Below, piece after piece: positions 17,947 through 19,906 of a stretch of 64,000 nt of DNA (the first letter of the stretch is position 1; each line of letters begins with the position of its first letter). A program made the translations under genes and the position numbers. The stretch is from the NCBI RefSeq assembly GCF_013283795.1, contig NZ_JABSOD010000001.1, forward strand, positions 190,009 through 254,008, in the 5' to 3' direction. The stretch comes from Rheinheimera lutimaris (GTDB taxonomy: Bacteria; Pseudomonadota; Gammaproteobacteria; Enterobacterales; Alteromonadaceae). Below the pieces are notes generated by a model that saw only the letters and a program-made list of their open reading frames with translations, was not told the DNA's origin and ran no database searches.

Positions 17947-18798
17947 TCAGCTCATGGCGGCCTGCAGCTTTTTCATCGCGTTCTTTTCTAACTGACGCAC
18001 ACGCTCGGCAGACACACTGTAACGATCGGCAAGTTCCTGCAGTGTCAGCTTGTTATGGTCTAACCAACGGGCCCGGACAATGTCCTGGCTGCGATCATCC
18101 AGCGTGCGCATAGCCGCCTGTAATCTGTCTACCGCGGCGTTGTCCCACTGGTCTTCTTCCACCCGCTGCGCCAAATCAGAGGCTTTGTCCTGCAAATAGT
18201 ACGCCGGTGCAGTATAGGCTGCTTCGTCGTCATCTTCCGGAGCATCAAACGGCATGTCGTAATTACTCATGCGTGACTCCATCTCACGCACTTCATGTTC
18301 AGCAACACCCAGCGATTCAGCCACGTTTTTCACTTCTTCCTGGTTAAACCAGCCTAAGTGTTTTTTCGCTTTACGCAGATTAAAAAACAATTTGCGCTGT
18401 GCCTTGGTGGTAGCAATTTTTACAATGCGCCAATTTTTCAGTACATATTCATGAATTTCAGCTTTGATCCAGTGCACCGCAAACGACACCAGCCGCACAC
18501 CTACATTAGGGTCGAAGCGTTTTACCGCTTTCATCAGGCCTATATTACCTTCCTGAATTAAATCACTGACCGGCAAGCCGTAACCGGAATAACTGCGGGC
18601 AATATGCACCACAAAACGCAGGTGCGACATAATCAATTGCCGCGCGGCTTCTAAATCACCGTTCTGGTGCAGGCGTTCAGCCAGGCTGCGCTCTTGTTCA
18701 GCGCTAAGCATGGCGATAGAACTGACAGCATGAGTGTAAGCTTCCAGGCTACTGCTGGCGGCTACCGGTAATGACATCATTTCTGCTGTATCGCTCAT
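17947..18798 (-). CDS. rpoH: RNA polymerase heat-shock sigma factor RpoH (sigma-32)
   Basis: RpoH directs transcription of chaperones and proteases after heat or misfolding stress. The family-specific RpoH box [12 protein letters not shown] is present. Region 2 is seen as [19 protein letters not shown] and region 4 near the C-terminus as [20 protein letters not shown]. The 283 residues have normal length. It lies downstream of ftsYEX, as in E. coli, but with a 124-base gap that carries its own promoter and a perfect CIRCE operator, pointing to separate control. Confidence 0.98.
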
Positions 18799-18831
18799 TT
18801 CTGTGTCCTTGCTTAACTAAGTGCATCGATA

Positions 18832-18858
18832 TTAGCACTCTTTGACAGAGAGTGCTAA
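18832..18858. promoter_or_regulatory. CIRCE element (HrcA operator) in the rpoH promoter
   Basis: TTAGCACTC-N9-GAGTGCTAA is an exact match to the CIRCE consensus, with perfect 9-base arms and the canonical 9-base spacer. It lies 34 bases upstream of the rpoH ATG. On the minus strand a candidate promoter, -35 TTAGCA and -10 TAATAT with an 18-base spacer, is formed partly from the two arms, so HrcA binding would block it. hrcA is not in the window. Confidence 0.92.
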
Positions 18859-18870
18859 TTTTAGTTGCTG

Positions 18871-18901
18871 CAGTTTTTAGATCTGCTTATTCTAAAAACT
18901 G
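18871..18901. repeat. Perfect 11-9-11 inverted repeat between ftsX and rpoH
   Basis: CAGTTTTTAGA (18871-18881) and TCTAAAAACTG (18891-18901) are perfect inverse complements separated by 9 bases. The stem is AT-rich and not followed by a clear T tract on the minus strand, so it is a poor terminator. It could be an ftsX transcript end hairpin or another operator 12 bases upstream of CIRCE. Confidence 0.7.
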
Positions 18902-18922
18902 AGAAGTCATAATTAAACGTTA

Positions 18923-19906
18923 TTAAGGGCCGGTTGGTTCAATCGCACTGATATGCCGCCGCACAGACAGGTAAGAGCCGCTTAAGCCCAGTAATACCGC
19001 AAGCAACATTAAACTGAAAAACTCCGGCACGCTAAGCGCCATCAAGCGGAACTCACTGCCGTATAGTGACGTGACACTGACAATGGCGCCCTGCAGCCAC
19101 CACAACATGGCTTCCACAATCAAAAACGCCAGCAAGCCACCAAATACGCCATACCAGATCCCGCTGTATAAAAACGGCCGCTGAATAAAAGCATCGGTGG
19201 CCCCTACCAACTTCATAACTTCAATTTCGTCTTTTTTGCTCATAATAGACAAGCGGATCGTATTGCCGATAATCAGCAGCACAGCACCCAGTAGCAGCAG
19301 CGCTATTACCAGCACGGCCTGGCGCAGCAAGCTGACAATGGCATCCAAACGGGTTAGCCAATCAATATCCAGTTTGCCAAACTCTACGATGCGCTCTTTT
19401 GATAACCGCTCAAGCAACTGCCGTGCGCTTTCGGCCGCGGTGTTTTTCGGCAACACCAGCAACACATCCGGCAACGGATTGTCCGTTAAGTAATTCAGGG
19501 CTGCACCAAAACCGGATACCTGACCAAATTCTTCCAACGCTTGCTGCTTACTGATGTGGGTTACCCGCGCTATGGCATTGTCGGCCTGCAGAATTTTCTG
19601 CAAACTGCTGATTTGCGTGGCACTGCTGTCGGCTTTAATAAACAGGCTGATCTCTGCAGCCTGAGTAAAGCTGTCGCTCACCTGCTGCACATTTTTTACC
19701 AGTAAATGCAACGTAGCCGGCAGCGTCAGACTGACGCCCAATACACCGATAGTCAGAATTGATGCCGAAGGCGTGCGCCACAGTTCGCCCAGACTGAATA
19801 AAGCCTGACGCACATGGTTAACCCAAAACATCACGAAACGACGGGCCGGGCTGATTTTATGCGCTGAAGCACCGCTGCTTACCCGGCCGGAAAACAAAAT
19901 ACTCAT
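18923..19906 (-). CDS. ftsX: Cell division protein FtsX
   Basis: FtsX is the four-helix membrane partner of FtsE; the complex activates periplasmic amidases at the division septum. After a cytoplasmic N-tail, a membrane helix is seen at about 50-70. A periplasmic loop containing SLFIKADSSATQISSL follows, and then three C-terminal helices from about residue 195. The ATG overlaps the ftsE stop by four bases. It is the last gene of ftsYEX. Confidence 0.96.
   Translation of the reverse strand: MSILFSGRVSSGASAHKISPARRFVMFWVNHVRQALFSLGELWRTPSASILTIGVLGVSLTLPATLHLLVKNVQQVSDSFTQAAEISLFIKADSSATQISSLQKILQADNAIARVTHISKQQALEEFGQVSGFGAALNYLTDNPLPDVLLVLPKNTAAESARQLLERLSKERIVEFGKLDIDWLTRLDAIVSLLRQAVLVIALLLLGAVLLIIGNTIRLSIMSKKDEIEVMKLVGATDAFIQRPFLYSGIWYGVFGGLLAFLIVEAMLWWLQGAIVSVTSLYGSEFRLMALSVPEFFSLMLLAVLLGLSGSYLSVRRHISAIEPTGP

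Follow-up and report, generated by a model that had tools for sequence, protein, structure and literature searches.

What does a perfect operator of the HrcA repressor do in front of the gene for sigma32 in a gammaproteobacterium? Repression by HrcA and activation by sigma32 are commonly shown as parallel or alternative strategies of the heat-shock response, and in E. coli sigma32 is managed by means other than HrcA. The E. coli gene, found in the order ftsY-ftsE-ftsX-rpoH, has several promoters, one of them sigmaE-dependent, and is not known to carry a CIRCE. The locus analyzed here lies in a stretch of 64,000 nucleotides from Rheinheimera lutimaris (the window, to which all coordinates refer) and comprises the following features, the promoter elements being predictions scored against sigma factor consensus motifs.

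17947..18798, minus strand: rpoH, encoding a sigma32-type sigma factor of 283 aa (Pfam), the putative controlled gene, with CIRCE upstream in 31/31 genus genomes
18829..18837, minus strand: predicted sigma70 extended -10, TGC-TAATAT, whose TGCTAA belongs to the right arm of CIRCE
18832..18858, no strand assigned: CIRCE operator with perfect 9-bp arms, perfect also in 31/31 genus genomes
18841..18845, minus strand: predicted sigmaE -10, TCAAA, a motif match within the CIRCE spacer
18853..18858, minus strand: -35-like TTAGCA, identical to the left CIRCE arm, with an 18-bp spacer to the -10 and a weak consensus
18862..18868, minus strand: predicted sigmaE -35, GCAACTA, 16 bp before TCAAA

An exact CIRCE had been claimed in a sequence-only reading of this DNA, and a scan of the window confirmed it: TTAGCACTC-N9-GAGTGCTAA occurs at 18832-18858 with 0 mismatches. 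It is the sole CIRCE match in the window at up to 3 mismatches, against 0.04 expected from shuffles, and a chance origin was rejected on this basis. At the same threshold it is also the single CIRCE of the whole genome (4,083,776 bases), where a reversed-pattern control gave 0 matches. The distance to rpoH, previously put at 34 bases, proved to be 33 bp, counted to the ATG at 18798 (start codon 18798-18796, minus strand). A strain-local oddity was rejected as well, since CIRCE precedes rpoH in all 31 genomes of the genus that were searched, each of which carries exactly one perfect copy, upstream of that gene; the conservation in relatives that the earlier reading had proposed to check is thus present throughout this set. 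Across these genomes, the arms are invariant and the spacer is variable. Some of them contain additional matches at 2-3 mismatches, which look like chance because the reversed control gives similar numbers. On the minus strand, 13-43 bp upstream of CIRCE, another inverted repeat with perfect arms, CAGTTTTTAGA-N9-TCTAAAAACTG, occupies window positions 18871-18901; it is in part conserved in the genus and holds TAGAAT, a possible distal -10.

The putative controlled gene is assigned to the sigma32 type by its Pfam sigma-70 regions 1.2, 2, and 4. Upstream of it lie ftsX and two genes named from their position, ftsE for an ABC-type ATPase and ftsY for an SRP-type GTPase, the same order as in E. 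coli, and metJ lies beyond its 3' end. In relation to this gene, CIRCE overlaps or adjoins a predicted heat-shock gene promoter, as it ends 33 bp before rpoH and has a conserved -10 at its right arm. The candidate promoter TTAGCA/TAATAT suggested earlier is supported in its -10 half, TAATAT being present in 29/31 genus genomes and the preceding TGC in 31/31. The proposed -35 does not hold: TTAGCA is an invariant CIRCE arm, the hexamer pair has 8/12 consensus bases, and a sigma70 scan of 18700-19000 (threshold 9/12) found no promoter. Accordingly, we rejected the reading of TTAGCA as the genuine -35 of a standard sigma70 promoter, the hexamer being fixed by CIRCE anyway.

Going beyond the earlier reading, a sigmaE-like promoter is predicted to overlap the rpoH CIRCE. 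Scored against the sigmaE consensus GGAACTT-N16-TCNRA, a box in the same register reaches at least 10/12 in 21/31 genus genomes, with GCAACTA in the window genome, and is missing or degenerate (5-8 of 12) in the other 10/31. A locus of a sister genus has GGAACTT-N16-TCAAA, a 12/12 match. Compared with the rpoH sites of the class sample described below, the box of the window genus is displaced downstream by 6 bp, with equal internal spacing.

A search for the repressor gene, also proposed in the earlier reading, was successful: the genome has one hrcA, as does each of the 31 genus genomes searched. The gene is flanked by grpE and by a divergently oriented NAD kinase gene (nadK<>hrcA-grpE), and its product scores 236 bits against the TIGR00331 equivalog (cut-off 197), matches Pfam PF03444 (23.8 bits, cut-off 21) and PF01628, and matches structure 1STZ (E 2e-17). 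Residues 1-75, the DNA-binding winged helix, share 51-57% identity with one HrcA each from families f20, f7 (Kangiella-like), and f14; from residue 101 on, identity to the same proteins is 21-26%. The C-terminal domain is thus strongly diverged, because of which the GroEL responsiveness of this HrcA may differ. In the genus-level group g39, HrcA is still more diverged, with best Pfam hits of 31-51 bits and, in the two proteins compared, 43-45% identity in residues 1-75 and 13% from 101 on. The three g39 genomes examined each have one perfect CIRCE, before rpoH. Such extreme divergence outside the DNA-binding domain alongside a perfect rpoH operator (L291-L293, L093-L095) is odd for a sensing protein; the pattern fits selection for binding a single operator, with the remainder drifting.

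Further CIRCE copies at groES and dnaK, which the sequence-only reading had suggested looking for, were absent from the window genome and from 30 genus groES loci. At up to 3 mismatches, CIRCE was found upstream of groES in 0/30 and upstream of hrcA in 0/30 genus loci; the best alignments had 9 mismatches at groES of genome G013 and 7 at dnaK of the window genome, neither a CIRCE. The possibility that CIRCE also serves groES, dnaK, or hrcA here was therefore rejected, there being none at those loci and one genome-wide, and the window genus lacks the CIRCE at groESL and/or the dnaK operon that marks the classical HrcA regulon. What these loci do carry are motif matches to the sigma32 consensus CTTGAA-N12-16-CCCCAT, found at hrcA, groES, and dnaK. 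The consensus printed in PMC545781 is similar to the one scored here. The window hrcA has the sigma32-like promoter CTTGAA-N14-CCCCATAT, 58 bp before its start. Boxes of this type (CTTGAA-N14-CCCCAT) score at least 11/13 at 30/30 genus hrcA loci (22 at 12/13 or more, 8 at 11/13), values reached by at most 3/100 single-base shuffles in any region, and the 31st genus genome scores 11/13. The groES motif scores at least 11 in 30/30 genus loci and at least 12 in 25, and a score of 12 was obtained both for groES of G013 and for dnaK of the window genome. In the nine hrcA loci examined from beyond the genus, the motif reaches lower scores, 8-11 of 13, with the minima in G361 (8) and G086 (9).

Within the family sample, hrcA was detected in 104/395 genomes (103 over the cut-off), which represent 10/52 genera; the other 42 lack it. 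The 17 hrcA-positive genomes examined outside the genus all have CIRCE (up to 2 mismatches) before rpoH; these derive from 18 of the 45 non-genus genomes with an hrcA hit in the order sample and were chosen for hrcA. Genome G180 was set aside as a spurious hrcA hit, being below the family cut-off and without CIRCE. On an RpoH tree of 37 loci, CIRCE stands at rpoH in 13/13 hrcA-positive genomes (0-1 mismatches) and is absent from rpoH in the 18/18 listed hrcA-negative genomes (5-9 mismatches) and in six family genomes of unconfirmed hrcA status (7-8 mismatches). The tree compares related rows and resolves many deep forks poorly; it requires 6 changes of the hrcA label, at least 3 of which are forced by supported branches. 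The hrcA-negative genomes G033, G790, and G793, with an RpoH match and no locus, are left out of the tree. Seven of its 13 hrcA-positive rows entered via their CIRCE and six via RpoH or as the window, an entry bias for which the 17 genomes picked by hrcA serve as a check. At class level, hrcA was found in 268 and CIRCE (up to 1 mismatch) in 269 of 369 genomes, with both in 254, hrcA only in 14, CIRCE only in 15 (including several incomplete assemblies), and neither in 86 (Fisher 1e-52). This tracking of hrcA by the rpoH CIRCE in family and order supports a control of rpoH by HrcA.

Two further observations were made in the family. In the hrcA-negative genome G798, a remnant of the right arm, AGTGCTAA, persists at the former position before rpoH and the left arm has decayed, as would be expected if the right arm doubled as a promoter -10. 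Genomes G227, G805, and G806 possess a second, diverged RpoH-like gene, whose product is 43-52% identical to the window RpoH.

CIRCE before rpoH turned out not to be peculiar to this bacterium. A scan of contigs from named species for a CIRCE upstream of an rpoH start motif returned at least 118 loci; among the matches listed, the downstream gene matches RpoH in 118/118, and represented are Dyella, Rhodanobacter, Rhodocyclaceae, Methylomonas, Thiobacillus, Alcanivorax, Kangiella, and Geomonas. In the class sample, we inspected 75 sites from the first 38 CIRCE-bearing genomes, taken in list order and thus non-randomly: 34 are at groES, 31 at rpoH, 9 at hrcA, and 1 is unassigned (L355). In genome counts, 31/38 have CIRCE at rpoH and 34 have it at groES, and the rpoH copy is the only site in 2/38 (G629 and G644). 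Family f20 has a single perfect CIRCE, upstream of rpoH, in 4/4 genomes searched. In general, then, an rpoH CIRCE is common in the inspected class genomes, and its being the only site marks the clade of the window, and f20. Tandem CIRCE copies (0-2 mismatches each, 3-6 bp apart) occur before rpoH at L098 and L099 (f7, Kangiella-like) and also at L377 (G073, f14) and L379 (G206, f7).

The anatomy of the site recurs in the inspected genomes of the class. The right arm followed by nAT forms a TAAnAT -10 in 28/31 rpoH sites, 0/34 groES sites, and 1/9 hrcA sites; at groES, CIRCE directly follows TATNA. A sigmaE-type promoter (GGAACT-N17-TCNRA, at least 9/10) lies over CIRCE in 14/31 rpoH sites, with 0.03 expected from shuffles, and in 0/34 groES and 0/9 hrcA sites. 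The named-species loci show a GGAACT peak too, with the terminal T in 105 of the 117 usable among those listed; one of the 118 listed has no 60 bp upstream and was left out.

With a probability of roughly 0.8, we read the CIRCE as a working HrcA operator on rpoH, in a feedback in which sigma32 would drive hrcA and HrcA would repress rpoH, making HrcA a dedicated governor of sigma32. The sequences themselves show the operator, its single copy and its conservation, hrcA and its co-occurrence with CIRCE, and the promoter motifs; from these, we infer binding, repression, the sensing step, and the dynamics of the feedback as follows. The HrcA encoded on the chromosome would use CIRCE at 18832-18858 as its DNA operator and, when bound, would cover the -10 elements of both predicted promoters, the sigma70 TAATAT at the right arm and the sigmaE TCAAA in the spacer, and would repress rpoH in unstressed cells. 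On loss of HrcA activity, through heat itself or because GroEL is drawn off by misfolded protein, rpoH would be derepressed, and sigma32 would then drive groESL, dnaK, and the hrcA-grpE operon. HrcA, together with its likely folding helper GroEL, would rise, closing the negative feedback on rpoH. The loop is predicted to be closed because groES, dnaK of the window genome, and hrcA have no CIRCE and hrcA has a sigma32-like promoter; from the sigma32-like promoters of the genus hrcA and groES genes, groESL, whose product is a known HrcA partner in other bacteria, is predicted to be under sigma32 too, and the HrcA of the genus would have no other perfect CIRCE target. The repression of rpoH by HrcA proposed in the sequence-only reading thus gains from the presence of hrcA, the site in 31/31 genus genomes, and the tracking of hrcA by CIRCE; its placement as a second arm beside groESL does not stand.

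An alternative concerns the signal. HrcA could be a direct protein thermosensor, not responding to GroEL titration, in which case the target and the loop would be unchanged. GroEL titration is known for HrcA of other bacteria: PMC8533110 describes the Campylobacter jejuni HrcA as an intrinsic thermosensor whose binding is stimulated by GroE, and PMC6032397 describes GroE-stimulated binding for the Helicobacter pylori protein. The diverged C-terminal domain of the window HrcA is in keeping with direct sensing; however, both mechanisms can coexist, and we regard an exclusive thermosensor as tentative and somewhat doubtful.

The palindrome could instead act in RNA, if transcription from a farther-upstream promoter placed it in the 5' leader of rpoH, where a hairpin would stabilize the mRNA or mask the ribosome site. 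It can pair into a 13-pair stem (plus strand scan), the -10-like TAGAAT lies upstream within 18871-18901, and a 2004 title by Jager reportedly links CIRCE to mRNA 5'-end stabilization of Rhodobacter capsulatus groESL. However, the arms are identical in all 31 genus genomes, with no compensatory changes, while the spacer varies; the right arm runs on into a -10 in 28/31 rpoH sites of the class sample, so that the proximal rpoH transcript would start after the palindrome; and CIRCE is missing where hrcA is missing, all of which makes a role in RNA very unlikely. The weakest alternative, a relic site that HrcA binds with negligible repression of rpoH, sigma32 being mainly under translation and stability control as in E. 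coli, can point to the absence of hrcA from the E. coli control genome and from the 42 family-sample genera but is highly improbable, since perfect arms persist in 31/31 genus, 2 g32, and 3 g39 genomes while the genus groES and hrcA sites are gone, so that selection must act on the rpoH CIRCE.

HrcA control of rpoH would be a variant of known HrcA/CIRCE control and no fresh principle. It shares with the class I regulon of Bacillus subtilis the operator, an orthologous repressor (TIGR00331), and a heat-shock output. In B. subtilis, CIRCE stands at the groESL and dnaK operons, whereas here the target is the sigma32 gene, the chaperone operons are CIRCE-free with sigma32-like promoters, and hrcA, also without CIRCE, looks sigma32-driven. 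A 2003 study by Permina and Gelfand, devoted by its title to the same regulons of the beta-, gamma-, and epsilonproteobacteria, may already list rpoH sites. Leaving that study aside, the accessible portions of the literature naming both CIRCE and rpoH place the operator before rpoH only in PMC545781, where Rodionov et al. (2004) predicted a perfect CIRCE at -51 before Geobacter sulfurreducens rpoH. In the portion of that paper available, CIRCE is additionally predicted at groESL and hrcA-grpE-dnaKJ of Geobacter, whereas the window genus has its single perfect copy at rpoH; promoter overlap, loop, and wider distribution are not described there for the Geobacter rpoH site. The main text of a review of proteobacterial regulons (PMC5343134) mentions neither HrcA nor rpoH, and the available parts of PMC3224663 and PMC11764788, which mention both HrcA and rpoH for Xylella and further plant pathogens, describe no CIRCE at rpoH.

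On a broader scale, we consider it somewhat probable that control of rpoH by HrcA is ancestral and general in Beta- and Gammaproteobacteria, with CIRCE set in overlapping sigmaE and sigma70 promoters as a stress gate, and that the E. coli type is a derived loss. If so, rpoH would be the gate that receives stress signals from both the cytoplasm (HrcA) and the envelope (sigmaE). The co-occurrence pattern and overlapping promoter motifs yield sharp and cheap predictions. The HrcA and sigma32 strategies here appear as one series circuit, widely conserved in sequence, and the genus would offer a naturally occurring repressor with one target, in which to ask what such a protein contributes when the sigma factor is already under chaperone control. 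In Rheinheimera and its relatives, the gate would be the last target of HrcA, closed into a loop from sigma32 through HrcA back onto rpoH, which suggests that E. coli may be the simplified case.
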